Origin: Gallaecimonas kandeliae
Lineage (GTDB): Bacteria > Pseudomonadota > Gammaproteobacteria > Enterobacterales > Gallaecimonadaceae
Length of the DNA stretch: 64,000 nucleotides
Reading direction: 5' to 3'
Assembly (NCBI RefSeq): GCF_030450055.1
Contig: NZ_CP118480.1
Location: 2,197,415 to 2,261,414 of the forward strand
Shown here piece by piece: positions 16,401 through 43,741 of the stretch. The position numbers were made by a program, and so were the translations under genes. The first letter of the stretch is position 1. Every line of letters begins with the position of its first letter. The notes beneath the pieces were generated by a model, which did no database searches, was not told the DNA's origin, and saw nothing but the letters and a program-made list of their open reading frames with translations.

Positions 16401-16536
16401 CCAGAACGCCGTCGGCACAGGGGTGCTGGGGGGCATGGTGGCTTCCACGGCGCTGGGGATCTTCTTCGCCCCGCTCTTCTTCGTGCTGGTGGAGCGCCTT
16501 GCCCACCGCCTGCAGAAGAAGGACTACAAGCCCTGA
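13414..16536 (+). CDS. RND multidrug efflux transporter (AcrB/HAE1 family)
   Basis: This is a proton-driven inner-membrane pump that exports drugs, bile salts or other amphiphiles through a tripartite complex. The 1040-residue length and the 12-helix layout with two large periplasmic loops match AcrB. The proton-relay Asp pair is visible in [21 protein letters not shown] in helix 4, and the N-terminus [23 protein letters not shown] is typical of the HAE1 group. The outer-membrane TolC partner is not encoded here. The operon ends in a terminator shared with the opposing acp gene. Confidence 0.95.
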
Positions 16537-21759: not shown

Positions 21760-23061
21760 TCAGGCGCCGAGGCGCCTTATCCGAAAATCCAGGAAATGGG
21801 TGGAGCAGGAGATGCAGGGATCGTAGTTGCGAATGAGCCGCTCGCAGAAAAACTTGAGCTCTTCGTCGCTCCTGTCGAAGCCGAAGCGGGGCACGCAGTG
21901 ATGCAGGTCCTGTTCTATCCTGGCCTGGTTCTGGCTGGTGGGGGGGATTATGGTGCAGCTCTGTACCCTGCCCTGCCCGTCCAGCCGGTAGCTGTGGTAG
22001 ATGAGGCCCCTCGGCGCCTCTGTGGCGAAGCAGCAGTCCCCTGCCCTCGGCTCGGCCGGCAGATTGGCCGGGCCAGCCGGCAGGCCAAGGGCCATCAGCC
22101 TTCTGACCTCCACCAGGGCGCCGTGGATCTCCAGGGCCCTCGCCTGGATGCTCTGGAACATGTTGCGGCTGGGAAAGCCAAGGCCGCAGTCCGTCGCCAA
22201 GGCCCTTGTCTCCTCGGGCAGCACGGGGAAGTTGTTGTTGACTCTGGCAAGGGGCCCCACCAGATAGTCCTTGCCGTCCAGCAGCGAGTAGAGGGCCGTG
22301 GAATGGGGCACCTGGTGTTCATGGAAATGCTGCCGATAGTCGCCGTAGCCCAGTTCCAGGCCGTTTGAGCAGGCGATGGCGCCGCCGTTGATGGGGTACT
22401 GGTTTTCGTCCTTGAGGCTGACCCAGATGAAATCCTGGCCATAGTCGGGCAGCTCCAGTGCCGCCGTCCAACGCACCAGGGCTGTCGCTGCCGGCAGGGC
22501 CTTGTCCACCAGCTCCTGGGCCTGCCGCCAGGCATCAAGGTCCGGCAGCCGGCCAAAGCCCCCCACCACCAGCCCCACTGGGTGTACGGAGCGCCCCCCC
22601 AGCAGGGCCATCAACGCATTGCCCGCGGCCTGCAGCTGCATGCCGCGCGCCAGCACATCAGGGTACACCTTGGCCATGGCCATGGCGTGGTCGAAACCCA
22701 GGAAATCCGGGGCTGCCAGGAAGTGGATATGCAGGGCGTGGCTCTGCACCCATTCCCCCAGGTTCATGATGCGCCGCAGCCGCACCAGGGGCTCGGGCAG
22801 CTCAAGACCGAAGAGGCTCTCCATGGCCTGGATGGCGGTGAGCTGGTAGGCCATGGGGCAGATCCCGCAGATCCGGGCCGCCAGATCCGGTACCTCGTGA
22901 AAGGCGCGGCCCTCAAGGAACTTCTCGAAGAGCCGCGGCGGCTCGAAGATGGCCAGATGCAGCGCCTCTATCTTGTCGCCCCTGGCGGACAGCTCCAGGG
23001 CCCCTTCCCCTTCCAGGCGGGTGACGAAGGGCACCTTGAGCTGGATGCGGCGCTTCTTCAT
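21760..23061 (-). CDS. hydA: [NiFe] hydrogenase large (catalytic) subunit, group 3b-like
   Basis: The 433-residue subunit holds the NiFe(CN)2CO centre where H2 is split or formed. The N-terminal cysteine pair is in AARICGICPMAYQ and the C-terminal pair in DPCISCSTHFLDF. After the C-terminal histidine motif an 11-residue tail (FLDFRIRRLGA) remains, the kind of extension removed by a HycI-like protease once nickel is inserted; a candidate protease gene is in the same cluster. The four-subunit order B-G-D-A matches the soluble NADP-linked hydrogenase (sulfhydrogenase) type. Overlaps hydD by 4 bp. Confidence 0.93.
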   Translation of the reverse strand: MKKRRIQLKVPFVTRLEGEGALELSARGDKIEALHLAIFEPPRLFEKFLEGRAFHEVPDLAARICGICPMAYQLTAIQAMESLFGLELPEPLVRLRRIMNLGEWVQSHALHIHFLAAPDFLGFDHAMAMAKVYPDVLARGMQLQAAGNALMALLGGRSVHPVGLVVGGFGRLPDLDAWRQAQELVDKALPAATALVRWTAALELPDYGQDFIWVSLKDENQYPINGGAIACSNGLELGYGDYRQHFHEHQVPHSTALYSLLDGKDYLVGPLARVNNNFPVLPEETRALATDCGLGFPSRNMFQSIQARALEIHGALVEVRRLMALGLPAGPANLPAEPRAGDCCFATEAPRGLIYHSYRLDGQGRVQSCTIIPPTSQNQARIEQDLHHCVPRFGFDRSDEELKFFCERLIRNYDPCISCSTHFLDFRIRRLGA

Positions 23062-23849
23062 TCCAGCTCCCTGACGTCGATGCCCTGCCAGCGCCGGTAT
23101 TGCGCATTGAAGGCAGGGTTGTGGCTATGGATGGCCGCGAAGCGCTTGGCCACCTCTTCTGGCAGCAGGCCAAGGCCGGCGAAGCGGTTGGCGAGGCTGT
23201 CGCCGTTGGGCTGCTCCGAGGGGCCGAAGCAGCCGTAGCAGGGCCTGCCGAAGGCCGGGCAGAGGGCGCCACAGCCGGTGCGCACCACAGGCCCCAGGCA
23301 AGGGGCCCCTTGTGTCACCACCACGCACACCTGCTGGCGGCGCTTGCAGTCCATGCACAGCTTCTCGGCGTCGTCACGGGCCAGGGTGCCGAGGCGCAGC
23401 AGCCGGACGAAATGGTTGAGCTGCTGGGCCGTGATGGGGCAGCCCCAGAGTTCGAAGTCCACCTTGACGTGCTCGGCGACGGGGGTGGAGCTGGCCAGGG
23501 TGGCGATGAAGTCGGGCCTGGCGTAGACGGCGGCCATCCAATCCTTGGCGTCCGCCAGGTTGCGAAGGGCCTGGACGCCGCCGCTGGTGGCGCAGGCCCC
23601 CATGGTCACCAGCAGCTTGCTGTTGCTCCTGATGCGCTTGAGCCGTTCGAGGTCGGCCGGGGTGGAGACGCTGCCCTCCACCAGGGCCAAGTCCACCTGG
23701 GCGTCGGGATCCTCGGCCCCCGCCTCGATGAAATGGAGGATCTCCACCTCCTCCAGCAGCGCCAACAGCCCGGGGCCCTGGTTCAGCAGCGCCAACTGGC
23801 AGCCGGAGCAGGAGGTGAGCTTATGGACGGCCAGGCGCAGCTTGGTCAT
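23058..23849 (-). CDS. hydD: [NiFe] hydrogenase small subunit, group 3b-like
   Basis: The 263-residue small subunit carries the iron-sulfur relay from the NiFe site. It starts [18 protein letters not shown], the proximal-cluster CxxC, followed by GACATSGG, and a cysteine-rich C-terminal part (PCLGPVVRTGCGALCPAFGRPCYGC) that can ligate further [4Fe-4S] clusters. No Tat signal peptide is seen, so the enzyme is cytoplasmic, as expected for group 3. The chosen ATG overlaps the hydG stop by 4 bp. Confidence 0.92.
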   Translation of the reverse strand: MTKLRLAVHKLTSCSGCQLALLNQGPGLLALLEEVEILHFIEAGAEDPDAQVDLALVEGSVSTPADLERLKRIRSNSKLLVTMGACATSGGVQALRNLADAKDWMAAVYARPDFIATLASSTPVAEHVKVDFELWGCPITAQQLNHFVRLLRLGTLARDDAEKLCMDCKRRQQVCVVVTQGAPCLGPVVRTGCGALCPAFGRPCYGCFGPSEQPNGDSLANRFAGLGLLPEEVAKRFAAIHSHNPAFNAQYRRWQGIDVRELE

Positions 23850-24655
23850 ATCCCCTCCCGGCCGAACCAGTTTTTGATGACGGGGTAGTGGAAGACGGGG
23901 CCGTCCTTGCAGACGAAATAGGGGCCCAGTTGGCAATGGCCGCAGGAGCCGATGCCGCATTGGAAGTTGCGCTCCAGGCTCAAATAGAGGGCCTCATCCG
24001 GCATTCCCATGGCCGCCAGGGTCTTGATGGCCGCATGCATCATGATCTCGGGGCCGCACATCAGCACGGCGCAGTTGGCGACGTCCAGCTGAGCCTGGTC
24101 CAGCAGCTCTGTGACCATGCCGAGCTTCCAGTGGTGGCGGCGCTTCTTTTCCTCGCTGGCCGCCAGCAACACCTGGCAGCCCTGGCGCTGCCAGGCCTCG
24201 TACTGGGGCTGCCAGAGCAGATCCTGGTGGTGCTTGACCCCTTGAAGTATGCAGATCCGGCCAAACTGCTGCCTGTGGCTGACGGCGTGACGGATGGCCG
24301 CCACTACAGGGGCGCAGCCGAGGCCTGCGGTGATAAAGAGCAGTTCCTTGCCCCTAAGTTTGGCCAGGGGCCAGCCTTGGCCATAGGGGCCGCGCAGCCC
24401 CAGCTGGCTTCCGGGTTTTAGTGCCAGCAGCGGCTTGGTGACCAGGCCCTGGGCCCGCACCGTATGCAGCAGCAGTTCGTCCTGCCAGCCCATGATGGAG
24501 ATGGGCACCTCCCCCACCCCCAGGAGGTAGAGCATGTTGAACTGGCCGAAGTGGAAGTCGAAGGGGTGGCCCGGCGGCAAGGCCAGGTGCAGGGTGTGGG
24601 TGCCGGGGATCTCCTCGACGTTCTTGACCAGGGTCACGGCCAGGGGCTCAGTCAT
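23846..24655 (-). CDS. hydG: Hydrogenase diaphorase subunit, FAD/NAD(P)-binding (HydG-like)
   Basis: The 269-residue protein belongs to the ferredoxin-NADP reductase/dihydroorotate dehydrogenase electron-transfer family. It has an FAD-binding barrel ([23 protein letters not shown]), a nucleotide-binding domain ([19 protein letters not shown]), and a C-terminal [2Fe-2S] motif [20 protein letters not shown]. It links the hydrogenase to NAD(P)H. The ATG at 24655 lies within the last codons of hydB, an 8-bp overlap. Confidence 0.92.
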
Positions 24656-25745
24656 GGCCGCCCTCCAAGATGGCCTTGGCCTCTTCCACCAGGTCGATGG
24701 CCACGGGGCACCAGGCGATGCAGCGGCCGCAGCCCACGCAGCCGCTGCGGCCGAACTGCTGCTGCCAGGTGGCGAGCTTATGCACCAGCCACTGGCGGTA
24801 GCGGTGCTTGATATCGAACCGCACCACCTTGCCGGCCACATAGCTGTGCTGCACCGAGAAGCAGGAGTCCCAGAGCCGCTGCTGCTGTGCCTCCAGGCCA
24901 TGGATGTCTCCCAGGCTCTGCTGCTTGGAGCAGAAACAGGTGGGGCAGACGGAGGTGCAGTTGCCGCAAGCGAGGCAGCGCTCGGCCACCTGTTGCCAGC
25001 GCTCATGGTCCAGGGCGTCAACCAGTTTGGCCAGTTCGGCCTGGGCCGGCATGACCCGCTGCTGCTTTCTGGCCCCTTGCAGCTGCTTCTCCGCCGCCTG
25101 GAACCGGGCGGGGCTGGCTTTTTCTAAGGGCAGGCTTGCGGCGATGGCCCTGCCCCTTGGTGAGCCCGCCTCGACCAAAAAGCCCGCTTCCAACTCGTCC
25201 AGCACCAGATCGAAGCCGGTGCTCGCCTGGGGGCCGTCGCCGGTGGAGACACAGAAGCAGGTGGCGGCGCTCCTGGCACAATTGACGGCGACGATGAAGA
25301 TGCCCTGGCGCCGGGCCTGGTAATGGGCGTCGGGTTCCAGGCCTTCAAGGAAATGCCGGTCCTGGATGGCAAGGGCCGCCAGGTCGCAGCCCCTGACGCC
25401 GATAAAGGCCTTGGGGCTCTGCTGGGGTTGCTCCTGGCGAAAGACGATACCGTCCGCTGTTTTGTGGGCCCGCCACAGCACCTCTTCCGGCTTGAACAGG
25501 AAAGGCTTTAACCCCTGGGGGCCCGTGTTCCAGGCAAAGCAGCGCTGACTGGCCGTCTTTTCCAGGCGGTAGCTGCCCGCCTCCGCCTTTTCCTGCCAGC
25601 CGCTCGGCAGTTCCTCCGGGCCTTCGAGGGGGGCCAGCACTATGGCGCCGTCCTTGACCTTGGGCCCTATCACCTCGAAACCGGCCGTCTTCAAGGCTTC
25701 GAAGAGGGCTGCCAGCCTTTCCCTCGGCAACCAGGCCTTAGCCAT
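24648..25745 (-). CDS. hydB: Hydrogenase iron-sulfur subunit HydB-like
   Basis: The 365-residue protein has a large N-terminal domain with [14 protein letters not shown] and conserved cysteines ([13 protein letters not shown]), and two ferredoxin-type [4Fe-4S] motifs: [14 protein letters not shown] and [13 protein letters not shown]. This is the arrangement of the beta subunit of group 3b hydrogenases (sulfhydrogenase HydB/AsrA type), which passes electrons between HydD and HydG. The start at [11 protein letters not shown] (25745) overlaps hypB by 8 bp; upstream sequence in frame is not conserved. Confidence 0.9.
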
Positions 25746-26475
25746 GGCGGCCCTCCGCCAGCCAGGCAAACCAGGCGTCCAGGCCCTGGCCAGTCCTGGC
25801 GGACAGTTGCAGCAAGCGGGTCCTGGGGTTGAGGCGGTCGAGGCCTTGCTTGACCTTGTCAAGGTCGAAATCCAGATGGGGCAGCAGATCGCACTTGTTG
25901 AGGATCACCAGCTCGCAGCTGGCAAAGAGATGGGGGTACTTCTCGGGTTTGTCCTCGCCGTCGGTGACCGCCATCATGGCCACCCGCCGCGTCTCGCCGA
26001 GATCGAAGAGGGCCGGGCAGACCAGGTTGCCGACATTCTCCACGAACAGCAGCGAACCTGGCTTGGGGGCCAGGGTATCGAGGCCGGCCTTTATCATCTC
26101 GGCATCCAGGTGGCAGCCGGTGCCGGTGTTGATCTGCAGCGCCTGGCCGCCGGCGGCATGGATGCGCCTGGCGTCATTCTGGGTCTGCTGGTCCCCTTCC
26201 AGTACCGCCATGTGCGGCCAGTCTTGGGGAGCGCCCTTGAAGGTGGCTTCCAGCAGCGTCGTCTTGCCGGCCCCTGGGGTGCCCATCAGGTTGACGCAGT
26301 GGATCCGGTGCTCGGCCAGCCAGCGCCTGTTGTCGGCGGCCAGGGCGTCGTTGCCCGAGAGCAGGGCCTGGTGCAGCTTGAGGCTGCCTTCATCGAGCTT
26401 GAGTTCGAGGGCAGGTGGTGCCCAGGGGGCAGAGAGCCTGGCTTTATCGCTGGAACATCCGCAGTGGCCGCACAT
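25738..26475 (-). CDS. hypB: Hydrogenase nickel-incorporation GTPase HypB
   Basis: HypB is the GTPase that with HypA delivers nickel to the hydrogenase large subunit. The 245-residue protein begins with the metal-binding CGHCGC motif, then has the P-loop MGTPGAGKTTLLEA, and the switch/guanine-specificity regions ENVGNLVCPALFDLGE and LNKCDLLPHL. The Cys in ENVGNLVCP is a known metal ligand at the dimer interface. It lies between hypA and hydB with short overlaps. Confidence 0.95.
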   Translation of the reverse strand: MCGHCGCSSDKARLSAPWAPPALELKLDEGSLKLHQALLSGNDALAADNRRWLAEHRIHCVNLMGTPGAGKTTLLEATFKGAPQDWPHMAVLEGDQQTQNDARRIHAAGGQALQINTGTGCHLDAEMIKAGLDTLAPKPGSLLFVENVGNLVCPALFDLGETRRVAMMAVTDGEDKPEKYPHLFASCELVILNKCDLLPHLDFDLDKVKQGLDRLNPRTRLLQLSARTGQGLDAWFAWLAEGRHG

Positions 26476-28925: not shown

Positions 28926-29167
28926 AGCTCCCCCTCCTGCCCCATCTTGGCCAGCAGCGCCAGGGTTTGCCTGGCCTCTCGCTCGTCAATCCTTGCCAGG
29001 GCGAAGCCGACGTGCAGCAACACCCACTGCCCCACCAGGGCCTCCAATCCCTCGCCGGCCAGCAGCGCCAGGCTGACGGGGCGGCGCACCCCGCCGCTGT
29101 CGGCCAGGGCCAGGGCCTGATCGCTATCCAAGATGGCCACCACTTGGGCCGGTACTCCCAGGCACAT
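28922..29167 (-). CDS. hypC: Hydrogenase maturation chaperone HypC
   Basis: The 81-residue protein starts MCLGVPAQV, the HypC/HybG signature whose Cys2 binds the iron unit and the large-subunit precursor. I start it at 29167 for this reason. The gene begins inside the 3' end of atpG (44-bp overlap, different frame), which ties the ATPase genes to the hyp genes. Confidence 0.93.
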   Translation of the reverse strand: MCLGVPAQVVAILDSDQALALADSGGVRRPVSLALLAGEGLEALVGQWVLLHVGFALARIDEREARQTLALLAKMGQEGEL

Positions 29168-30020
29168 GGGCGCCCTCCTCTGCCGGTTTTTCTCTTCCAA
29201 CCATAGCTTCCTCCAGGCTGGCCGCGCTCAAGAGGATCACCTCTATCTCCTCGATGATCTCCTCCTGGCGCAAGGCGTTGCAGCGCCGCCCCAGCTCCTC
29301 GGCCCGCTGATCCAGGAAACGCACGGCCCCGTCCAGGTGGGTGACGCGGTTGTGGTTCTCCGCCATCAGCCCCTGGTACAGCAGGGCGTTGAGGGCCGCG
29401 AAGAGGTACTGCTCTGTGAGTTCCAGCAGGAACTGGGGCGGCGGCACCTGCAATATGGGCGGGTAGGCGAAGGCGGCCTTGGCCCCGCGCAGGGCCTCGA
29501 AGGGAGGCAACAAGGCCAGCGGCGCCTCGCAGCCGGGAAAAAGGGCCGTCAAGGCCAGGGGGCCGCGCTCCATCTGCAAGGCGGCCAGGGCCGGCACCAG
29601 CTTTTCCAGCACGACAGGCACTTCTTCGGCGACGCTGGCGCCATCCAGGGCGACCAGCAGCTCGGGCCGGCCCGCCACCAAACCTTTGAGGCGGCGCCCC
29701 ACCGCCACCAGCAGCGGCGGCGGTGCCAGCGTTTCCAGCCGGCGCACCAGGGCCTGGTTGAGGTCGCCACAGAAGCCGCGCTCCGTGCCCAGCAGCAACA
29801 GCACCGGGGTGGTTCCCTTGGCAAGGGGCAGGCAGTCCGAATGGAAGCCCAGGAAGTCCGCCGCCACCTGCGTGATGGCGGCCAGCTGCGCCTCCTGGGC
29901 GGCCAGCAGCGGCACCAGTTTGTGGCTTTCCATCTGCGCCAAGGTCTTCATGGCGCTCATGATCTCGCGGATATCGGCGAGGCCCTGGCGGTGGCGTTCC
30001 AGCTCCTGGCGGCGGGTCAT
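29124..30020 (-). CDS. atpG: F-type ATPase gamma subunit
   Basis: The 298-residue protein is the central-stalk gamma subunit: N-terminal coiled coil ([25 protein letters not shown]), Rossmann-like middle part with [18 protein letters not shown], and C-terminal helix ([36 protein letters not shown]) that forms the other half of the rotor coiled coil. Starts at the ATGA overlap with atpA. The last residues (proline/glycine rich) overlap hypC and may be a recent extension. It is the last gene of the ATPase set. Confidence 0.9.
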
Positions 30021-31546
30021 GGCGATGCCAGCCAGGCCGCCAGGGCCTGGTGCCAGGCCTCCCTGGGGCTGTCCAGGGTCAGGCTGCCCTGGGCCGTCCA
30101 CCCCCTCAGCCTGTCCAGCAGCGCCGTCACCGCTTTGGGCTCAAGGCCGTCGAAGAGGCCGTCGTTGAAGGCCACCAGCCAGGCCAGCTGGAAGCGGGCC
30201 GACTCCGGCGCCAACCGTTCCTGCTTCAGCAGTTCGCGCAAGATGCGGCCGCGCCTGATGGCCGCTTCCATGCTGGCCTCCAGCTTGGCACCGAAGCGGG
30301 TGAAGACCTCCAGCTCCAGGAACTGCAGGTAGTCCAGCTTCATGCGCCCCGCTTCCGCCTTGATGGCGACGTGCTGGGCCTGGCCGCCGATGCGCGACAC
30401 GGAGCGGCCTATGTCCACGGCCGGCTTGAAGCCGCCGGCGAAGAGGGTCCTGTCCAGATAGATCTGGCCGTCGGTGATGGAGATGAGGTTGGTGGGGATA
30501 TAGGCCGCTATCTCCCCCTGCAAGGTCTCCACTATGGGCAGGGCCGTGATGCTGCCGCCGCCAAGCTCGGGGCTGAGGCAGGTGGCCCGCTCCAGCAGCC
30601 TGGCGTGCACCGAGAAGATGTCCCCTGGGTAGGCTTCGCGGCCCGGGGGGCGGCGCAGCAGCAAGGACAGCTCGCGGTAAGTGCGGGCATGGGTGGCCAG
30701 ATCGTCATAGATCACCAGGGCGTGCTGGCCCCTGGCCATCCAGTATTCGGCCAGGGTGCAGCCGGCGAAGGGGGCCAGGTGTTGCAGGCCGGGCAGGCTG
30801 CTGGCCTCGGCCACCACCAGGGTGCTGTATTCCAGGGCGCCGTAGCGGCGCAGCGTCTCTATGGTGTTGACGACGGTGGAGCGCTTCTGGCCGATCAGCA
30901 CATAGATGCAGTAGACCCCCTTGCCCTTCTGGTTGATGACGGCGTCCAGGGCCAGGGCGCTGCGGCCAAGGCCGTCGTCCCCCACCAGCAACTGGCGCTG
31001 GCCGCGGCCTATGGGGATCAGGGTGTCGATGATCTTGGTGCCGGTATAGAGGGGCGACTGGACGGGGCCCCTTTCGATGATGGGCGGCGAAGGCCGCTCC
31101 AGCGGCAGCCAGCCGTCCGGCTCGGGGGCCGGGAGATCGTCAAGGGGAGTGCCAAGGGGGTCGATGACGCGGCCGAGGAAACCCTCCCCCACCGGCATGC
31201 TGAGCCGGCGGCCGGTGCGCATGGCCAGGGTGCCGGCGTTGAGGCTGTCGGTCTGGTGCAGTAGCACGGCGCCGAGGCGATCCTGGTTGAGGTCGAAGAC
31301 CATGGCGCTGCTGCCGTCCTCGAAGCTCAGGACGTCATCCATGGCCGCCGACGGCAGGCCGGACAGCCAGGCGATGCCGTCTCCCACCGACTGTACCTTG
31401 CCCTGCTCGCGAAAGCGCAGGGCCGGCTGGTAGGCCGCCAGCCATTCGGCCTGCTGCGCCAGGGGCCCCTTGCCCTGGGCTGCTTCAGTGGGCCTAGCCG
31501 GGGGCGCCTTAGCCGGGGGCGCCTTAGCCCGGGGCACCCTAGCCAT
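30017..31546 (-). CDS. atpA: F-type ATPase alpha subunit (alternative N-type-like set)
   Basis: The 509-residue protein is the non-catalytic nucleotide-binding subunit of F1. It keeps [76 protein letters not shown] and the arginine finger in [11 protein letters not shown]. The P-loop reads GDDGLGRS, with Arg where GDRQTGKT has Lys. The N-terminus is an Ala/Pro/Lys-rich repeat ([12 protein letters not shown]) instead of the usual membrane-binding helix. Start at 31546 overlaps atpF by 8 bp. Confidence 0.92.
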
Positions 31547-32267
31547 GGTCCAGCTCCGCCAGGCCGCGCAGCTCCTCACGCAGGTTGGCCTCCAGCAGCC
31601 AGTCCCCCAACTTGAGCTCGAAGCCGGCCAGCAGCTCGGGCTGCTCCCGGTAGTTAAGCGCCGGCTTTTGGCCAAGGAGCCGGGCCAGCTCGGCCTCCAG
31701 CCTGGCCCTTGCCGCCTCGGGCAGCGGATAGGCGCTGGCCAGCTGCACAGCTCCCTGGCCGGCCAGGGCGGCCTGCTGCTGCTCATCGAGCCCCGCCAGG
31801 CCGGCCAGCAGCAGTTCGAAGAGCCTCGCTTCCAGCTCGGGCCCTGCGGCCTTGGCCAGCAGCCGGCTGGCAAAGGTTGCCCCCTGGGCAAGGGCCTGGA
31901 GTTCCTGTTGGCGCCGGCGCTGGGCCTCCTGGCGGGCATCAGCAGCCTGGGCCTGGGCCCGGCTTGCTGCCAGCTCCTCTTCGAGGGCAGCCTGGTGCCT
32001 TTGCTTCTGGGCATCCAGCTCCAGGGCCAAGGCTGCCTTCAACCGCTGCCGCTCCTTCTCCCAGTCGGCCAGGCGCCCCTGGTACTGGACGCTCATGGCC
32101 TCGGCCTGCTGCTGGCGGGACTGGGCCTCGGCCAGCTGGGCCTCTATGGCGGCGCGGCGCCTGGCCATGACCGCCAGCACGGGGCCGTAGAGGAAGCGTT
32201 TCAGGATCCAGATCAGTACCAGGAAGTTGATGCCTTCCAGCAGGAAAGTCGACCAGCTCAGTTCCAA
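31539..32267 (-). CDS. atpF: F-type ATPase b subunit with delta-like C-terminal domain
   Basis: The 242-residue protein begins with one membrane helix ([20 protein letters not shown]), continues as a long Gln/Ala/Arg-rich coiled coil (about residues 35-135), and ends in a domain resembling the C-terminal part of the delta/OSCP subunit: [22 protein letters not shown] followed by [22 protein letters not shown], like the delta sequence with AYPL and the GDxxxDxSxRxxL motif. The operon has no separate delta gene, so this fusion probably covers the stator connection to F1, as in N-type ATPases. Confidence 0.88.
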
Positions 32268-32275
32268 GTTGCCCC

Positions 32276-32542
<267 letters not shown>

Positions 32543-33217
32543 CTATTCCTCCCGCGCTTGGCGCTCTTGTTGTGATTCCAGGCCGCCGGCGACGTAGATC
32601 AGCGCCAGCATGCCGAAAATATAGGCCTGAACCAGGGCCTCGACGATGTGCAGCATCAAGATGGGCACGGGGGCCAGGAAGCCGGCCACCAGCAGGATCA
32701 GCAGCGCCGCCATCTCCAGGCTCATGATGTTGCCGAACAGCCGCACCGCCAGGGCCAGGGTGCGGCTGACCTCGCTGATGAGATGGAAGGGCAACAAAAT
32801 GGGGCTGGGGGCCAGGTAGTGGCGGAAGTAGGCCCTGGGGCCCTGGAGGCGGATGCCGTACCAGTGGCTGGCCAGGAACACCAGCAATGCCAGGGCGCCG
32901 GTGGCTGACAGATCCCGGGTCGGTGAATGCAGGCCAGGCACCAGGCCGCAGAGGTTGGCCAGCACCAGGAACACCCAGAGGCTGGCCACGAAAGGCAGGA
33001 TCTGCTTGCCGAAACGGGGGGTGACGGCCAGCACCGCCTCCTCCATGGTGGCCACCACCGCCTCCAGGGCTGTCTGCCAGAGGCCGGGGCTGTCGGCAAG
33101 GCGCCGGCTGGCCAGCCAGGCCAGCAGCCAGAGCAGCGCCATGATGCCCCAGGTGGTCACCACCGTATCTGTGATGGCCAGGGGGCCCAGGGTCAGCAGG
33201 ACGGATTCGGGTTCCAT
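32543..33217 (-). CDS. atpB: F-type ATPase a subunit
   Basis: The 224-residue membrane protein forms the ion half-channels beside the c ring. The essential arginine is in SRTLALAVRLFGNIMS (helix 5), and the C-terminal helix ALVQAYIFGMLALIYVAGGL holds the conserved Gln-Ala-x-I-F pattern. I start it at MEPESVLLTLGPLAITDTVV (33217), two bases after the atpQ stop, which leaves no room for an atpR gene. The stop abuts atpE. Confidence 0.92.
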   Translation of the reverse strand: MEPESVLLTLGPLAITDTVVTTWGIMALLWLLAWLASRRLADSPGLWQTALEAVVATMEEAVLAVTPRFGKQILPFVASLWVFLVLANLCGLVPGLHSPTRDLSATGALALLVFLASHWYGIRLQGPRAYFRHYLAPSPILLPFHLISEVSRTLALAVRLFGNIMSLEMAALLILLVAGFLAPVPILMLHIVEALVQAYIFGMLALIYVAGGLESQQERQAREE

Positions 33218-33219
33218 GC

Positions 33220-33488
33220 TCAGTCCCTCACGAACAAGTAGACGTTGACGGCGCCGACAAAGACCCCCAACAGGATCAGGCTCAGGGTCCAACGCACCGA
33301 GTAGCCCGCCACCAGGCCGTCCAGCCAGTGCCCCAGGTAGGCGCCGGCCACCACCGGCAGCACGAAGATGAGCCCCAGGGTGCCGATGTAGACGGTCTGG
33401 CCGATAAGGCCGGAGCGCTCCTGCTCTGCCTTCTTCATGCGCTTTGCCTGGCGCTCCACCTGGCGGCGCAGGCTTTCCTTGTCCGTCA

Positions 33489-33489
<1 letters not shown>
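33220..33489 (-). CDS. atpQ: AtpQ/AtpI-like small membrane protein of the alternative F-ATPase
   Basis: The 89-residue protein has a basic N-terminal helix (LRRQVERQAKRMKKAEQER) and two hydrophobic segments (about residues 30-52 and 65-86). It occupies the place of the ATPase gene-1 type protein (AtpQ) found between epsilon and a in alternative F1Fo operons, and is thought to help ring assembly or ion supply. Its ATG overlaps the atpC stop and its own stop is two bases before atpB. Confidence 0.82.
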
Positions 33490-37584
<4,095 letters not shown>

Positions 37585-37592
37585 GCCGCCTC

Positions 37593-38042
37593 CTAGAAGC
37601 CCGTTAGGTAGTGATAAAGGTAATGGCAAAGCCCCGGCAGCGCGGCCGCCACTTCGGGGCTCAGACCAGGGCTATAGGGCTTGAAGCGCTTGCCCATCAC
37701 CACCACCAGATCCACCTGGGGCGGCGCCTGCTGCAAGGCCAGCAGCGCCAGCAGCTCGGCGGCGCCACCACCGTGGTCCAGGCAGCCGGCGTCCCCCAAG
37801 GCCCAGGGCCGCAAGCGCCGGTAGTGGCGCACAGTCCCAGGCTTGCCCCCCCGGCCCACATCCAGCAGCACCAGCCGTTGGCAGCCCTTGAGCCTTGGCA
37901 ACAAGGTGACGCCGCCGGTGCCGCCGTCCAGCAGTTGGGTGTCTTCCGGCCAGGGGTAGGCGGCCAGTTGGGCCAGGGCCTCCTGGCCGAAGCCGTCATC
38001 TCCATGGAGGGGATTGCCAATGCCGAGGATACAGAGACTCAT
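37593..38042 (-). CDS. Hydrogenase maturation protease (HyaD/HycI family)
   Basis: The 149-residue protein starts with the family signature LGIGNPLHGDDGFG (nickel-binding Asp) and contains LLDGGTGG and DVGRGGKPGTV with the second Asp. Such proteases remove the C-terminal tail of the large subunit after nickel insertion, so the substrate is most likely the hydA product of this cluster. The start at 38042 overlaps the ribonucleotide reductase stop by 4 bp. Confidence 0.87.
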   Translation of the reverse strand: MSLCILGIGNPLHGDDGFGQEALAQLAAYPWPEDTQLLDGGTGGVTLLPRLKGCQRLVLLDVGRGGKPGTVRHYRRLRPWALGDAGCLDHGGGAAELLALLALQQAPPQVDLVVVMGKRFKPYSPGLSPEVAAALPGLCHYLYHYLTGF

Positions 38043-39736
38043 GGCGCCTCCAGCTGACAGCAGGGCTCGCTGTCGGTGCTGAGTACGGCGCTGGTAACGG
38101 CATTGGGCCTGAAGCAGGTGCAGCCCTTGAGGCCAAGACGGTAGGCGTCCTGGTAGAGGGCGGCAAAATCGGCAAAGGGGTAGTCGGCGGGGATGTTCAC
38201 CGTCTTGGAAATGCTGTTGTCCACGAAGGGCTGCAGGGCCGCCACCATGGCCAGGTGCGCCCTGGGGCTGAGTTGGCGGGCGGTGACGAAGTGCCCGGGC
38301 AGGGCCTTGGCGCCGCCCTGGCGCCAAAGGGCGTGGGCCCAGTCCTCCACCTCGAAGCAGATGCCGCCCCCTGGCGTTAGCACCTGCCGCCGGTGGTGGA
38401 AGTCGAAGACCGGCTCTATGCCGCTGGAGAGGTTGCCGGCCAGCAGGCTGATGCTGCCGGTCGGAGCCATGGCCAGGAGATGGCTGTTGCGAATGCCCTG
38501 CTTCGCTATGCCCGCTTTCAGGGCCTCTGGCAGCCTGGCCACGAAGGGGCTGGCGAGATAGGGCCCGGCTTCGAAGAGGGGGAAAGGCCCCTTCTCGGCG
38601 GCAAGGTCGATGGAGGCCTGGTAGGCGGCATCGCGAATACGCCGCAGCAGGGCCGCCGCCCAGTCCCTCGCCGCCTCGCTGTCATAGCGCAGCCCCAGCA
38701 TCAGCAGGACGTCGCCAAGGCCGGTGACACCGAGGCCGATGCGCCGCGAGGCCTTGGCCTGCGCCTCCTGGGCCGGCAAGGGGTAGTGGGAGAGGTCAAT
38801 GACGTCGTCCAGCATCCGCACCGCCAGGGCCACCGCCTTTTCCAAGGCCGGCCAGTCCAGGTGGGCCTGGGGGCCGAAGGGGGTCTGGATAAAGGCGGTG
38901 AGGTTGAGCGAACCCAGATCGCAGGCGCCATAGGGCGGCAAAGGGATCTCGCCGCAGGGGTTGGTGGCCGAGATGGCCTCGCAGTAGCGGAGGTTGTCCT
39001 CGCTGTTGATGCGGTCGATGAAAAGCACCCCGGGCTCGGCGCTGTCATAGCAGGCCTGCATCAAGCGTTGCCAGAGTTCGCGGGCAGGCAGCCTGACCAG
39101 CTCCTCACCTTGGGCCGGAAAGCGCAGCGGCCAGTCGGCGCCCTCTGCCAAGGCGGCCATGAAGGCGTCTGTGACCTGCACCGAGAGGTTGAAGTGGCGC
39201 AGGGCTGCCGGATCGCGCTTGGCGTCGATGAAGGCCAGGATGTCGGGATGGTCGCAGCGCAGTGTGGCCATCATGGCGCCGCGGCGGCTGCCGGTGGACT
39301 GCAAGGTGGCGCACATGGCGTCCCACACCTTCATGAAGGAGATGGGTCCAGAGGCGACGGTGCCACAGGCGCCGCCGGCGCTGCCCGCCGGCCTCAGGGT
39401 GGAAAAATCCAGGCCTATGCCACCGCCCTGTTGCAGCGTCAGGGCCCCTTCCTTGAGGTGCTCGAAGATGGCCGCCATCTCGTCCTCGATGAGTCCCATC
39501 ACGAAGCAGTTGCAGAGGGTGACACGCCTGGCCGTGCCGGCGCCTGCCAAGATGCGGCCACCGGGCAGGAAGTGAAAGCCGGCCAGGATCTCATAAAAAC
39601 GTTCGGCCCAGCCTGGCTGATCATGGGGCTCGATCGAGGCAAGGGCCCTGGCGACCCGCCACCAACTGTCCTCTATGCCCTTTTCTCCTGGCTGGCGGTA
39701 TTTGCTTTCCCAGACGAAGCGGGCCAGTTCCTGCAT
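38039..39736 (-). CDS. nrdJ: Adenosylcobalamin-dependent (class II) ribonucleotide reductase
   Basis: This enzyme makes deoxyribonucleotides with a B12 radical and works with or without oxygen. The 565-residue protein has the active-site motif ATNPCGEIPLPPYGACDLGSLNL, the disulfide-forming cysteine region VTLCNCFVMG, and the APTGSISLLAGNLSSGIEPVF segment. It is a short NrdJ; the C-terminus ends DSEPCCQLEAP, so the usual CxxC redox tail appears as adjacent cysteines. No nrdB-like radical subunit is adjacent, which supports class II. It directly follows the hydrolase gene and overlaps the hydrogenase protease gene. Confidence 0.88.
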   Translation of the reverse strand: MQELARFVWESKYRQPGEKGIEDSWWRVARALASIEPHDQPGWAERFYEILAGFHFLPGGRILAGAGTARRVTLCNCFVMGLIEDEMAAIFEHLKEGALTLQQGGGIGLDFSTLRPAGSAGGACGTVASGPISFMKVWDAMCATLQSTGSRRGAMMATLRCDHPDILAFIDAKRDPAALRHFNLSVQVTDAFMAALAEGADWPLRFPAQGEELVRLPARELWQRLMQACYDSAEPGVLFIDRINSEDNLRYCEAISATNPCGEIPLPPYGACDLGSLNLTAFIQTPFGPQAHLDWPALEKAVALAVRMLDDVIDLSHYPLPAQEAQAKASRRIGLGVTGLGDVLLMLGLRYDSEAARDWAAALLRRIRDAAYQASIDLAAEKGPFPLFEAGPYLASPFVARLPEALKAGIAKQGIRNSHLLAMAPTGSISLLAGNLSSGIEPVFDFHHRRQVLTPGGGICFEVEDWAHALWRQGGAKALPGHFVTARQLSPRAHLAMVAALQPFVDNSISKTVNIPADYPFADFAALYQDAYRLGLKGCTCFRPNAVTSAVLSTDSEPCCQLEAP

Positions 39737-40445: not shown

Positions 40446-41090
40446 TCAGCCCGCTGACAGCCCCTGGATATAGGCGGCCAGGGCCTGCATCTGGTGGTCG
40501 CTGAGCTTGTGGGTCACCATCTTCATGGCCACCCCGTCGGGGCGCTGCTCGGTACCCTGGAAGATCAGCAGCTGTTTGCGCAGGTAGTCGCCATGTTGGC
40601 CGGCGATCCTGGGGATGACCCCGTTGCCCTGGCCGCTACTGCCGTGGCAGCTGTTGCAGGCAGGTACCTGCTCTTCGGGTACCCCTTTTTCGAAAATGGT
40701 CTTGCCCTCGGCGGCCAGGGCCGGATCGGCACCAGCGTCCGCGGCCCCTGGCGTCTGGGCGGCGTAATAGCTGGCGAGGCCTGCGATCTGCTCATCGGTG
40801 AGGGTCTTGCTGAGGCCCCACATGTACTGTTCACCGGCAGGATCGCTGCGGTTCTTGCCGCGAAACGCCTTGAGCTGGCCCTCCAGGTAAGGGGCCTGCT
40901 GGCCGGCCAGTTTTGGAAAGCCCGGGTTGGTGGAACGGCCGCCCTGCCCATGGCAGAGGGCGCAAGCCTGCTGCGCCATGGCCTGGGCCGGGACGGCCGG
41001 ATCATCGAGGTTACGGGAGCGCTCTGTGTTTGAGCAGGCGCCGGCTACCAGGCCAAGGGCCAGGGTCACAGCCATCTTGAGAGGCTTCAT
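40446..41090 (-). CDS. Diheme c4-type cytochrome, lipoprotein
   Basis: The 214-residue protein has a signal peptide ending in a lipobox-like GACSN and two class I cytochrome c domains with heme motifs CALCHG and CNSCHG. The axial Met candidates lie in MWGLSKTLTDEQ and MKMVTHKLSDHQMQ. This is the layout of cytochrome c4, a periplasmic, membrane-attached electron carrier. It lies 20 bp downstream of the fused cytochrome-barrel gene, suggesting that it takes electrons from or gives them to that protein. Confidence 0.9.
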   Translation of the reverse strand: MKPLKMAVTLALGLVAGACSNTERSRNLDDPAVPAQAMAQQACALCHGQGGRSTNPGFPKLAGQQAPYLEGQLKAFRGKNRSDPAGEQYMWGLSKTLTDEQIAGLASYYAAQTPGAADAGADPALAAEGKTIFEKGVPEEQVPACNSCHGSSGQGNGVIPRIAGQHGDYLRKQLLIFQGTEQRPDGVAMKMVTHKLSDHQMQALAAYIQGLSAG

Positions 41091-41110
41091 GTTTTTTCTC
41101 CTCGCGCTGC

Positions 41111-42574
41111 TCAGTAAGCCGCCCAGGCATAGAAGAACAGGGTGTTGTTGTCACTGGCATTACGGCCAAAACCGTCGTAGTTGTGGCTGGCGCCGTTGTA
41201 CTTGTTGTAGGCCGTGTACTGCAGGCCAAGGCGCAAGTACTGGATCGGCGTCCAGAACAGTTCGCCGGTAAAGCCCCGGGTTTCGGGGTCACCGCTCAGG
41301 TTACCCTCGACCCGGCTGGAGCTGATGCCGGTACCCAAGGGATCGTCCGAGGTGATCTGGCCGTTGCTGTCATAACCCGATGACTGGTTGAGGCTGTTGG
41401 TGGAGCCGGTCAGGGAGAAATAGGACAGGCTGGCCCCGTACTTGGCCTGGTAGATATAGGAGGCCTTGAGGCGCAGCACGTTGGTGGTATCGGTTCCGTC
41501 CACCGGCGCCACCGGGGTCAGGCCGTCGGCCTGGAAGTAGGGAGAGCCGTCGGCCAGGCTGTTTTGCGAGTAGTGCTGCACCTGGTGCATGTAGGAAAGC
41601 TGCACTGTCACGGCATGGGGGAACAGCAGGTACTGGTACTGGCTGTCGACGCCGGTATTGTTGGTGCGCCCCAGGTTGTTGTGATCGCTACGCTCGGCGC
41701 CGGGGTCAAAGATATGGGCGACCATGCCCGATGCCCCCACTTCCAGGCTGTTGGCCCCCCAGTCACGGGAATAGGCCAGGCGCCAGTAGGGGTTGTTGTT
41801 GCCGTCCAGGTAGGTCCTGTCTTCCCCTGTGATACCGGCCCTGAAGGGCGAGAAGATGCGGTCGGCCGAACGGTAGAAGCCCAGCTCGGCGTAGAGGCTC
41901 TGGTTCCAGAACAGGTAGGCGGTGAGGCCGGCGATGTTGCCGTCCGAGCCGAAGCCGGGATAAGGGGCTTCGCCGTCAACGAAGCGGTAGGCACTGGGGG
42001 AAGGCACGGGCACGTACTGCATCCAGGCCGCTACCGCATTCCAAGGATCGGAGATGGAGGGGTTGTTGTTGAGGCTTATCCCCCAGATCAGATCCTGGTC
42101 CCCCATGATCAAATGGTCGGCGTAGCGGATGTCCACGTTGTCGGTGGTAGTGGTGCCCTGGAAACTGCCGTCATCGGCCTGGTTGCCGTAGTTGTCGTAG
42201 GTGAACTGGCTGAACAGGCCCAGGTTGTCGGTGACCTTGCCGGCCAGGAAGACGCTGCCGGTGGCGAAGATAAGCTTGCTCCGCTTCTGGAAGTCATCGC
42301 CGGGGTCGTCGCTCTTGCTGGTGTTGTTGACACTGACCGAGCTGGCCACTGCCATCACCGACAACGGCAGGGCGCGGCGGCCCAGGGTATAGCCGGTCAT
42401 CTTGAAGAGGCGGCCGTAGGGGGTGAGCTCGGGAAACTGACCCCCGGCATGGCAGGCCTGACAGTTTTGCCCCGTCTGCCTGGCATAGGCCGGCACCGCC
42501 TGGGCCAGGCAGGGGGCCAATGCCAAGATCAGCAAGCAGAGTATCCTGGATGAAAGAGAGCCTATGGTGGTCAT
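41111..42574 (-). CDS. Fused monoheme cytochrome-outer-membrane barrel protein (Cyc2-like)
   Basis: The 487-residue precursor has a signal peptide (ending LAQAVPAYA), then one heme motif in ARQTGQNCQACHAGG followed by FPELTPYGRLFKMTGYT, and about 400 residues of beta-strand-rich sequence with alternating Tyr and aromatic residues, ending in WAAY, an outer-membrane barrel C-terminus. The ARQTGxxCxxCH...LTPxGRxFKxxGYT pattern with a porin-like barrel is that of Cyc2-type fused cytochrome-porins, used for iron oxidation or electron transfer across the outer membrane. Related proteins without that role exist, so the function is inferred. Confidence 0.75.
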   Translation of the reverse strand: MTTIGSLSSRILCLLILALAPCLAQAVPAYARQTGQNCQACHAGGQFPELTPYGRLFKMTGYTLGRRALPLSVMAVASSVSVNNTSKSDDPGDDFQKRSKLIFATGSVFLAGKVTDNLGLFSQFTYDNYGNQADDGSFQGTTTTDNVDIRYADHLIMGDQDLIWGISLNNNPSISDPWNAVAAWMQYVPVPSPSAYRFVDGEAPYPGFGSDGNIAGLTAYLFWNQSLYAELGFYRSADRIFSPFRAGITGEDRTYLDGNNNPYWRLAYSRDWGANSLEVGASGMVAHIFDPGAERSDHNNLGRTNNTGVDSQYQYLLFPHAVTVQLSYMHQVQHYSQNSLADGSPYFQADGLTPVAPVDGTDTTNVLRLKASYIYQAKYGASLSYFSLTGSTNSLNQSSGYDSNGQITSDDPLGTGISSSRVEGNLSGDPETRGFTGELFWTPIQYLRLGLQYTAYNKYNGASHNYDGFGRNASDNNTLFFYAWAAY

Positions 42575-42719
42575 TGCCTTTCCCTTTGTCGTTGTGATTC
42601 AGCCCAAGCAGCGCTGCGACAACCAAAGCGCCCTATCCTGGGCAGACAAAAAACATGTTAAGAGTAGGTCAAAAAATCCCCAGCGGCTTGATCCAGAACA
42701 AGAAAGCCGGGAACCACAG

Positions 42720-42923
42720 AGCAGAAGGCGGGACTCAAGACGCGCAGCGAGGCAAGCAACAGGCTTGTTCCCCACCGAAGACAGGCAATAAAAAAGCCCG
42801 ACCTGATGGTCGGGCTTAGGAGCTGTTGACAGAGTAGCCGGGACTCAAGGCGGCCAGCCAGGTGGGGGCGCCTAGCCCCGCGCCCCAGCAAGCCAACGGC
42901 TTGCCCCCGCCGGAGACAGGCAA
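42720..42923 (-). repeat. Decayed tRNA-Asp-like terminator units
   Basis: Two stretches share a GGGACTCAAG core (about 42730-42739 and 42840-42850), which is the reverse of the tRNA-Asp 3' end, followed by GC-rich variable sequence and then the identical terminator block (42784-42818 and 42917-42953). They look like decayed copies of the tRNA-plus-terminator unit. No coding sequence is convincing here. Confidence 0.5.
42790..42818 (-). terminator. Terminator, duplicated copy 1
   Basis: Minus-strand hairpin AAGCCCGACC / GGTCGGGCTT with a 4-base loop and a T-run. The same sequence, including its flank GACAGGCAATA, occurs again at 42924-42953. It follows a decayed tRNA-like unit. Confidence 0.8.
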
Positions 42924-42953
42924 TAAAAAAGCCCGACCTGATGGTCGGGCTTA
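42924..42953 (-). terminator. Terminator of the tRNA-Asp array, copy 2
   Basis: Minus-strand hairpin AAGCCCGACC / GGTCGGGCTT with poly-T, starting 9 bp downstream of the last tRNA-Asp gene. It is the functional end of the array. Confidence 0.85.
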
Positions 42954-42961
42954 GGGGTTGT

Positions 42962-43038
42962 TGGCGGAGTGGACGGGACTCGAACCCGCGACCCCCGGCG
43001 TGACAGGCCGGTATTCTAACCAACTGAACTACCACTCC
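42962..43038 (-). tRNA. tRNA-Asp (GTC), copy 1
   Basis: 77-nt tRNA with encoded CCA. The acceptor stem GGAGTGG pairs with CCACTCC, the anticodon loop reads CTGTCAC (GTC) and the T-arm GCGGGTTCGAGTCCCGT is canonical. It is identical to the other three copies and is last in the transcription order. Confidence 0.97.
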
Positions 43039-43116
43039 GCGCTATTCTTGTTCGTCCGGCTCAAGGCCGAACCTTATTCTTCACGCTCAGCGCCTTGGCG
43101 CTGTAAATCAAATTAG

Positions 43117-43165
43117 TGGCGGAGTGGACGGGACTCAACGTGGCCGGCTAGGCCCGCGACCCCGG
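43117..43165 (-). pseudogene. tRNA-Asp 3'-end relic 1 with enlarged T-loop
   Basis: The last 20 nt of tRNA-Asp (GAGTCCCGTCCACTCCGCCA) are intact, and the 5' side of the T-arm (GGGGTCGCGGG) is also present, but the loop sequence is replaced by a longer GC-rich palindromic insert (CCTAGCCGGCC). The D-arm and anticodon arm are absent. A hairpin GGAAAGCC/GGCTTTCC (43164-43181) lies next to it. It cannot make a functional tRNA. Confidence 0.7.
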
Positions 43166-43222
43166 AAAGCCTTGGCTTTCCTCCGCTTCGATACCGCACT
43201 GGGCCGTATCGCGTCTTGCAGC

Positions 43223-43299
43223 TGGCGGAGTGGACGGGACTCGAACCCGCGACCCCCGGCGTGACAGGCCGGTATTCTAACCAACTGAACTACCACTCC
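43223..43299 (-). tRNA. tRNA-Asp (GTC), copy 2
   Basis: 77-nt sequence identical to copy 1, with GTC anticodon and encoded CCA end. Copies are 130-190 bp apart, separated by repeated spacers. Confidence 0.97.
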
Positions 43300-43428
43300 G
43301 CACTTATTCTTTTTACCGACCGGCGTGCAACCTGGCGGTACATTGTCACTGGCAGGTCGATGGGACTTTGAAGCCCCGGAAAGCCTTGGCTTTCCCCTGC
43401 AACGCTGCTGTCTCAGCGTTTAAATTCG

Positions 43429-43505
43429 TGGCGGAGTGGACGGGACTCGAACCCGCGACCCCCGGCGTGACAGGCCGGTATTCTAACCAACTGAACTACC
43501 ACTCC
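43429..43505 (-). tRNA. tRNA-Asp (GTC), copy 3
   Basis: 77-nt sequence identical to the other copies. The spacer on its left contains the repeated hairpin GGAAAGCC/GGCTTTCC (43378-43395). Confidence 0.97.
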
Positions 43506-43557
43506 GCACTTGTTCTTTTTTACCGACCGGCGTGCGACCCATCGATACATTGTAAGT

Positions 43558-43606
43558 TGGCGGAGTGGACGGGACTCAACGCGGCCGGCTAGGCCCGCGA
43601 CCCCGG
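43558..43606 (-). pseudogene. tRNA-Asp 3'-end relic 2 with enlarged T-loop
   Basis: Nearly the same as relic 1: intact 20-nt tRNA-Asp 3' end, the GGGGTCGCGGG side of the T-arm, and the GC-rich palindromic insert in place of the T-loop, followed by the hairpin GGAAAGCC/GGCTTTCC (43605-43622). The two relics share their insert, so one derives from the other by duplication. Confidence 0.7.
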
Positions 43607-43664
43607 AAAGCCTTGGCTTTCCTCCGCGACGACACCGCCCTTAGGCCGCATCGTATCTATAAGT

Positions 43665-43741
43665 TGGCGGAGTGGACGGGACTCGAACCCGCGACCCCCG
43701 GCGTGACAGGCCGGTATTCTAACCAACTGAACTACCACTCC
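43665..43741 (-). tRNA. tRNA-Asp (GTC), copy 4
   Basis: 77-nt sequence identical to the other copies. It is the first gene transcribed from the promoter at 43786-43815. Confidence 0.97.

Follow-up and report, generated by a model that had tools for sequence, protein, structure and literature searches.

A Cyc2-type cytochrome-porin and diheme cytochrome c4 gene pair in an unexpected host and context, an energy-metabolism island of Gallaecimonas kandeliae

We analysed a 64,000-nucleotide stretch of the Gallaecimonas kandeliae genome (assembly GCF_030450055.1, contig NZ_CP118480.1, positions 2,197,415 to 2,261,414; hereafter the window), in which a cyc2-like gene for a fused monoheme cytochrome and outer-membrane barrel is followed on the minus strand by a gene for a diheme cytochrome c4. 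The two genes are a Cyc2-type pair, of a kind already known, in an unexpected host and context. It is on balance probable that they form a horizontally acquired electron-intake module of the Cyc2-Cyc1 type, with Fe(II) as the most likely donor, which would be switched on at low oxygen. That the pair carries electrons into the periplasm can soundly be inferred.

The first-pass annotation of the window had read a Cyc2-like layout with a c4 partner from the letters ARQTGQNCQACH, followed by LTPYGRLFKMTGYT. Letters and genes were found in place, both genes on the minus strand, and the layout was supported by the signature motif, the single heme, a 16-stranded model, the tree and the recurrence of the pair. 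The cyc2-like open reading frame (ORF; 41111-42574) starts with ATG and gives a product of 487 amino acids (aa); its codon composition is coding-like, as is that of the c4 gene. The published description of Cyc2 (PMC8406198) rests on protein length, a single heme motif, the signature AXPXFAR[Q/K][T/Y], a PXL motif and a barrel of 16 strands. The product is longer than the Cyc2 minimum of 365 aa, its N-terminus looks signal-like by eye (helix 5-19, then AQA ahead of the motif), and the motifs follow in the order AVPAYARQT-GQN-CQACH-AGGQF-PEL-TPYGRLFKMTGYT. AVPAYARQT (codons 42473-42499, minus strand) is the signature with F replaced by Y, and CQACH (residues 38-42, codons 42449-42463, minus strand) is the sole CXXCH in the protein; PEL follows it, two residues farther from the heme than in the Cyc2 of rus operons. 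Across 73 aligned rows of the family, both cysteines and the histidine of the heme motif were invariant (73/73) and the Phe position of the signature held F or Y in 72. The strict signature was matched in 49 of the 73 rows, and in 59 if either F or Y was allowed; Y stood in place of F in 11 rows, and three of the six rus-type Cyc2 rows failed the strict pattern as well. The tested Cyc2-defining features thus appear to be present in the window protein, one conservative letter of the signature excepted.

Neither Pfam nor NCBIfam returned a family for the protein at E ≤ 10, and a sequence search of the PDB gave a chance-level match only (E 2.2). A hidden Markov model (HMM) built from six rus-type Cyc2 sequences scored the protein at 93.6 bits (E 2e-28), and no other of the 299 window ORFs of at least 70 aa scored; since full-length relatives reach 66% identity and this was the only match to the rus-type HMM in the window, the likeness is not a chance one. 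The AlphaFold model, for which 64 relatives were supplied as input, had 16 strands of at least nine residues between residues 71 and 486 (mean predicted local distance difference test score, pLDDT, 81.4; predicted template modelling score 0.81). Its fold resembles general porins, the first VIA row being 5o78_A (Z 22.3) with many tied rows. PDB entry 5O78 was also the best match of the published A. ferrooxidans Cyc2 model (PMC10654088). A predicted barrel was therefore obtained, and its general-porin likeness, being shared with the published Cyc2 model, does not discriminate; the idea that the protein is a specific-solute porin is neither helped nor refuted by it. DcaP (6eus) appeared in both lists of structure matches; OprP and OprO were absent from the 50 rows of each that were inspected, from which no exclusion follows. 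M74 was considered as a distal heme ligand and rejected; it is nearly invariant in an alignment of 64 of the 79 readable relatives' proteins with that of the window, but the rus-type rows have F there.

A scan of GTDB species genomes gave at least 585 relatives of the cyc2-like gene, and the best 80 (loci L051-L130) were examined, with gene starts chosen by script; a readable ORF was obtained in 79 of them (L117 gave none). Among these best 80, the first 19 were 55-66% identical to the window protein. A diheme c4 lay just downstream in 72 of the 79 readable loci when the first heme was sought within 700 bp, and a stricter script found an adjoining c4 in 67 of the 80 loci, none in 10, and 3 loci that were too short. 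By strict clustering of neighbours c4 recurred in 43 loci, and no other gene did so in more than eight. The barrel and the c4 are a conserved pair. The similarities of cyc2 and c4 to the window's copies were correlated (Spearman 0.75, n=72), as expected if both travel together; co-transfer of exactly the window's two genes is likely, not proven, because the c4 trees are weak.

Trees were quick maximum-likelihood searches with support from the Shimodaira-Hasegawa-like approximate likelihood ratio test (SH-aLRT) only. In the cyc2 tree of 73 rows, which held 40 of the 79 readable relatives, the window protein fell in a set of 17 rows (SH-aLRT 99) together with 16 relatives, 15 of them titled Betaproteobacteria or a subgroup thereof; the exception, L069, was titled 'Pseudomonadota'. 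The enclosing clade of 31 rows (99) consisted of all 30 rows with CHAGG and the single row with CHVGG. Outside the window, a cyc2-like match was found in none of 58 other genomes sampled from the host's genus and order, four congeners included, and 56 of 369 genomes of the class had one, the window's own counted. Only 9 of 72,556 plasmid records matched, the best on an Ideonella dechloratans plasmid that carries the same pair (57.6%). Because of this tree and this patchy distribution, we infer that the pair was acquired from a Betaproteobacterial source.

Some of the relatives' loci were unusual in themselves. In L069 (7522-11428) a c4 stands between two tandem cyc2-like genes, which looks like a duplication of the pair or a meeting with a second copy. 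A giant multiheme cytochrome is encoded after the cyc2-c4 pair of genome G370 (L031:8873-14182), in an ORF of 1769 aa that has 57 CXXCH motifs. In 5 of the 79 loci (L055, L056, L062, L063 and L070) the same strand encodes, right after the pair, a small secreted protein, presumably of the YceI family. A 28% cyc2 relative occurs with the same scores on an Acidithiobacillus ferrooxidans plasmid (L146, CP084173.1) and an Acidiphilium cryptum plasmid (NC_009469.1); these identical scores suggest that the acidophiles exchanged it recently.

The partner gene (40446-41090, minus strand) starts with ATG 20 bp downstream of the cyc2-like gene and encodes 214 aa. Its product is diheme, as had been claimed, with two CXXCH motifs and two Cytochrom_C stretches (E 9.5e-21), and its start, read by eye from the translation, looks like that of a lipoprotein (lipobox-like AGAC-S, with serine after the cysteine). 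The best PDB relative was 1h1o (141.8 bits, E 2.4e-40; next c4 structure 105.9 bits, E 2.3e-29), which we take to be A. ferrooxidans Cyc1. Cyc1 is named as CYC41 in PMC8406198. When PDB structures were included in the c4 tree, 1h1o grouped with rus-operon Cyc1 (support 99), and the host's two c4 paralogs split off with the classical c4s at 89; no supported set held the window's c4. When the PDB rows were left out, the two paralogs were no longer together. The window c4 is here called a Cyc1-like partner, the inner support of the trees being weak.

Ahead of the pair lies an FNR/Anr-type box, TTGTTCTGGATCAA (42688-42701, minus strand, 127-114 bp before the ATG), one mismatch away from the FNR/Anr consensus that we take to be TTGATNNNNATCAA; it is one of two such sites in the 64 kb, where 0.5 were expected. 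The family's upstream regions were scanned in the same way, the 79 readable loci and the window giving 77 of them after 3 shorter than 250 bp were removed. An exact box was present in 14 of the 77 and a box with at most one mismatch in 30, the window included. Control regions ahead of other ORFs of these loci, lying at least 2.5 kb from the start of the cyc2-like gene and at least 1.5 kb from its end, had an exact box in 10 of 650 and a box with at most one mismatch in 20 of 650 (Fisher p 1.8e-19 for 30/77 against 20/650, relatedness ignored); they replaced a looser control that did not keep clear of the cyc2-like gene (20/406 and 42/406, respectively). Nineteen permuted half-sites, scanned over the 77 upstreams, gave at most 0 exact sites and 3 with one mismatch or fewer, and seven alternative spacings gave no exact site. 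No two of the 77 upstreams were more than 80% identical (ungapped), and the sites were spread from -32 to -200. Across the family the FNR/Anr-type box is strongly enriched. It is not limited to the c4-paired genes, since 10 of 29 other Cyc2-like genes from beyond the examined 80 loci had one with at most one mismatch (2 of them exact). It suggests low-oxygen induction, with putative binding of FNR. The enrichment is possibly a new finding; in the papers that contain the whole words Cyc2, iron oxidation and FNR, the wordings to which the search was limited, FNR had another meaning or stood in the references only.

The rus operon of genome G436 served as the reference for comparison. Its order was cyc2, diheme c4, a 196-aa gene, COX2, COX1, a 212-aa gene, a UbiA-family (CtaB-like) gene, rusticyanin (200 bits, cut-off 146.7) and a weak CtaG match, the same order as that given for the Acidiferrobacter rus genes in PMC10654088. 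There is thus good support for placing the window protein in the broad Cyc2 family. The window pair resembles the Cyc2-Cyc1 of the rus operons of Acidithiobacillus, Acidiferrobacter and Acidihalobacter (PMC10654088) in having cyc2 and then a diheme c4, in the signature motif, single heme and barrel, and in having 1h1o as the best PDB relative of its c4. It differs in what follows: in the rus operon cyc2-cyc1 is followed by cup, coxBACD and rus, whereas neither cox genes nor a rusticyanin gene follow the window pair. The lipobox-like start of the c4 and the FNR/Anr-type box also set the window pair apart.

Published Cyc2 proteins are sorted into three clusters, and a tree of 1,593 sequences exists for them. 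From published descriptions, the window protein may belong with the Cluster 2 Betaproteobacterial Cyc2 (the Leptothrix-Sphaerotilus group, PMC11412304; one Nitrotoga genome, PMC10734462), and its nearest relatives, at 55-66%, are likewise Betaproteobacterial pairs; the window pair differs in standing alone among the 58 other genomes searched from its genus and order. Cyc2PV-1 of Mariprofundus (Cluster 1), which has been expressed in E. coli, is described with the same fused monoheme cytochrome-porin layout (PMC8406198). The MtrCAB, MtoAB and PioAB conduits also pass electrons across the outer membrane, but there the barrel has 26 strands and the decaheme protein is a separate one (PMC8406198); in the window protein a single chain combines one heme with 16 predicted strands.

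On the reading that we favour, the protein would sit in the outer membrane as a 16-stranded barrel with its N-terminal monoheme segment at the periplasmic mouth. There the heme would be reduced by a small dissolved reductant that enters the barrel from outside, Fe(II) being the likeliest, and the electron would go on to the diheme c4, which a lipid probably anchors to the outer membrane on its inner side. From c4 it would pass through periplasmic carriers to a heme-copper oxidase, perhaps one of the three COX1-family oxidases of the host genome. Topology, tether, direction and donor are proposed on the basis of the Cyc2 literature and the gene pair, and the FNR/Anr-type site would switch the pair on when oxygen is low. 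The electrons would supplement heterotrophic respiration. Autotrophic iron oxidation via RuBisCO was considered and rejected; RuBisCO had no match in the host genome in a search in which 5 of 14 control genomes were positive, so the host probably gains extra energy and not carbon fixation. Nor was rusticyanin matched in the host genome. We put Fe(II) first among possible donors since it is oxidised by all three Cyc2 representatives that have been tested biochemically (PMC8406198).

Several points weigh against this reading. Rus-type Cyc2 forms its own clade (100) in the cyc2 tree, and a supported split puts it on the other side from the window's clade, both belonging to one wider family. The window's clade further carries two extra residues after the heme (CHAGGQFPEL, where rus Cyc2 reads CHTSFPQL), and in the window signature Y stands where the published motif has F, so that the strict pattern is unmatched. 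Confidence in the model is lowest for the heme segment (pLDDT 33-66 over residues 21-50). The placement of the window c4 is weakly supported in the c4 trees, and without PDB rows its neighbours (76) are c4s from more distant pairs (L002, L081, L083 and others), not those of the closest cyc2 relatives. The window box has its one mismatch, 47 of the 77 upstreams have no site at one mismatch or fewer, and the close Ideonella plasmid pair, which lies outside the 77, has no box (best 5 mismatches). Finally, many relatives come from genera known as heterotrophs, and Fe(II) is no more than the proposed substrate.

In the strongest alternative, architecture and electron direction are the same and the pair likewise works at low oxygen, but the donor is another small extracellular reductant in place of Fe(II), such as a reduced shuttle, a Mn or Cu ion, a sulfur compound or an electrode mediator. 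We regard this as a real but lesser possibility. Members of the clade occur in genera such as Pseudomonas, Ralstonia, Paraburkholderia and Ramlibacter and in several Chromobacteriaceae (all among the best 80 relatives), and the FNR/Anr-type boxes indicate oxygen limitation rather than an iron signal. Many Cyc2 homologs are said to occur in organisms not known as iron oxidisers, iron oxidation there being called an open question and non-Fe functions being left open (PMC5566968; PMC8406198); Cyc2 function outside the well-tested clades is called uncertain (PMC8406198; PMC10734462), and the authors of the Nitrotoga work, whose genome had a single Cluster 2 homolog, refrained from calling it an iron oxidase (PMC10734462). 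Against a different donor stand the iron oxidation by all three tested representatives (PMC8406198) and the conservation of the heme segment with rus-operon Cyc2.

The pair lies at one edge of a genomic island with approximate limits 16590-42775 (minus strand), delimited by comparison with congeners and containing pyruvate dehydrogenase, AcsA, a hydrogenase, maturation genes, an ATPase, NrdJ, a hydrolase-like ORF and the cyc2-c4 pair. The window's efflux-pump gene (13414-16536) has its counterpart some 320-500 bp away from a tRNA-Asp array, at a clean junction, in congeners G001, G002 and G004; in G003 the pump gene is missing at the site, and the tRNA-Asp array and dnaQ are present. None of the 130 window ORFs between 16590 and 42640 matched the corresponding 20-kb stretches of the four congeners. 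The clean junction and this lack of matches together indicate some 26 kb extra at the host's site. Four tRNA-Asp genes (42962-43741, minus strand; ARAGORN) flank the island on the cyc2 side, and three or four are arrayed at the corresponding place in all four congeners. A duplicated tRNA-Asp terminator hairpin (42794-42952, minus strand; stems 42794-42817 and 42929-42952) is the likely island junction, and repeats resembling tRNA fragments were seen near the tandem tRNA-Asp genes (42794-43741). No integrase was found among the annotated island genes, of which part of the ORFs was scanned.

The first-pass annotation had set the pair next to a hydrogenase cluster on the same strand, with 46 bp between them. 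The spacing is right, measured between the stop codon of c4 and the gene that follows (40399), and the genes after the pair are the hydrolase-like ORF and then NrdJ. The cluster itself turned out to be a mixed block of pyruvate dehydrogenase, acetate-CoA ligase, a group-3b-type [NiFe] hydrogenase, maturation genes (HypF and a maturation protease among them), an F-type ATPase operon and NrdJ. The hydrogenase (21760-25862, minus strand) is of the sulfhydrogenase kind, with alpha, delta, gamma and beta subunits matched by NCBIfam ShyA/HydA, HydD, HydG and HydB, all below the curated cut-offs, and it was not found in any of the four congeners. The ATPase operon (29124-35260), which looks N-type, encodes alpha/beta, gamma, A and B/OSCP subunits within the hydrogenase and maturation block on the same strand. 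NrdJ, a B12-dependent ribonucleotide reductase of 565 aa (38039-39736), possibly serves DNA synthesis without oxygen.

This arrangement raises the thought that the pair and the hydrogenase are one redox module, in which electron intake is coupled to NAD(P)H or H2 turnover, and the single island, the single strand and the 46-bp spacing would fit with it. The hydrogenase was found at E ≤ 1e-60 in 94 of 369 class genomes, the window's included; with the window's excluded, 20 of 55 cyc2-positive genomes were also hydrogenase-positive against a background of 93 of 368, where about 14 would be expected if the two were independent (relatedness ignored, two listings compared by eye). Plasmid pOLGA1 is a counter-example to the absence of a link, with relatives of the cyc2-like gene (41%) and of the hydrogenase (46%) some 12 kb apart. 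However, the genomes of the 19 closest cyc2 relatives among the best 80 matched the window hydrogenase weakly or not at all, and 4 of 31 relatives' genomes (loci L074-L077, Thiobacillus/Hydrogenophilales and two others) had it at 50-51%, on contigs that differ in length from those of the pair. None of the 20 class genomes had both within 300 kb on one contig, although draft contigs could hide some, the c4 is the sole widely recurring neighbour of the pair, and no box with at most one mismatch preceded six other island positions. Group 3b hydrogenases are, moreover, cytoplasmic. A functional link was therefore rejected, as co-occurrence, neighbourhood and promoter sites give it no support beyond the common island, and a single module is improbable; the first-pass adjacency stands as a shared island and is best read as shared cargo, so that the neighbouring cytoplasmic hydrogenase need not be a partner in the intake that we propose. 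As an observation apart, the roughly 15 kb of pOLGA1 concerned (L229:12281-27826) also hold a cyclic-nucleotide-binding gene, a universal stress gene and c-type cytochrome genes, next to the hydrogenase like that of the window and the cyc2 relative.

A heme porin that has lost, or never had, electron intake, serving, for instance, in the uptake of metal or heme or as a sensor in the envelope, would agree with the general-porin fold and the scattered distribution, but is the least probable of all in the face of the heme motif in 73/73 rows, the signature (F or Y) in 59/73 and the diheme carrier just downstream in 72/79 relatives.

The pair, which we read as a probable Cyc2-Cyc1-type electron-intake module, is found inside a larger energy-metabolism island that other sampled species of the genus do not have. 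Tentatively, one may go further and suppose that in many heterotrophic Beta- and Gammaproteobacteria the pair is a mobile, FNR/Anr-regulated intake device that adds to respiration at low oxygen with electrons from any small reductant present, of which the use for growth on Fe(II) would be a specialised descendant or cousin; if so, a Cyc1 tethered to the outer membrane would free the relay from rusticyanin-like carriers. The existence of a two-gene clade with an FNR/Anr-type box before many of its members leads to a concrete prediction, low-oxygen induction, which could be tested in isolate relatives such as Pseudomonas fluorescens FW300-N2E3.

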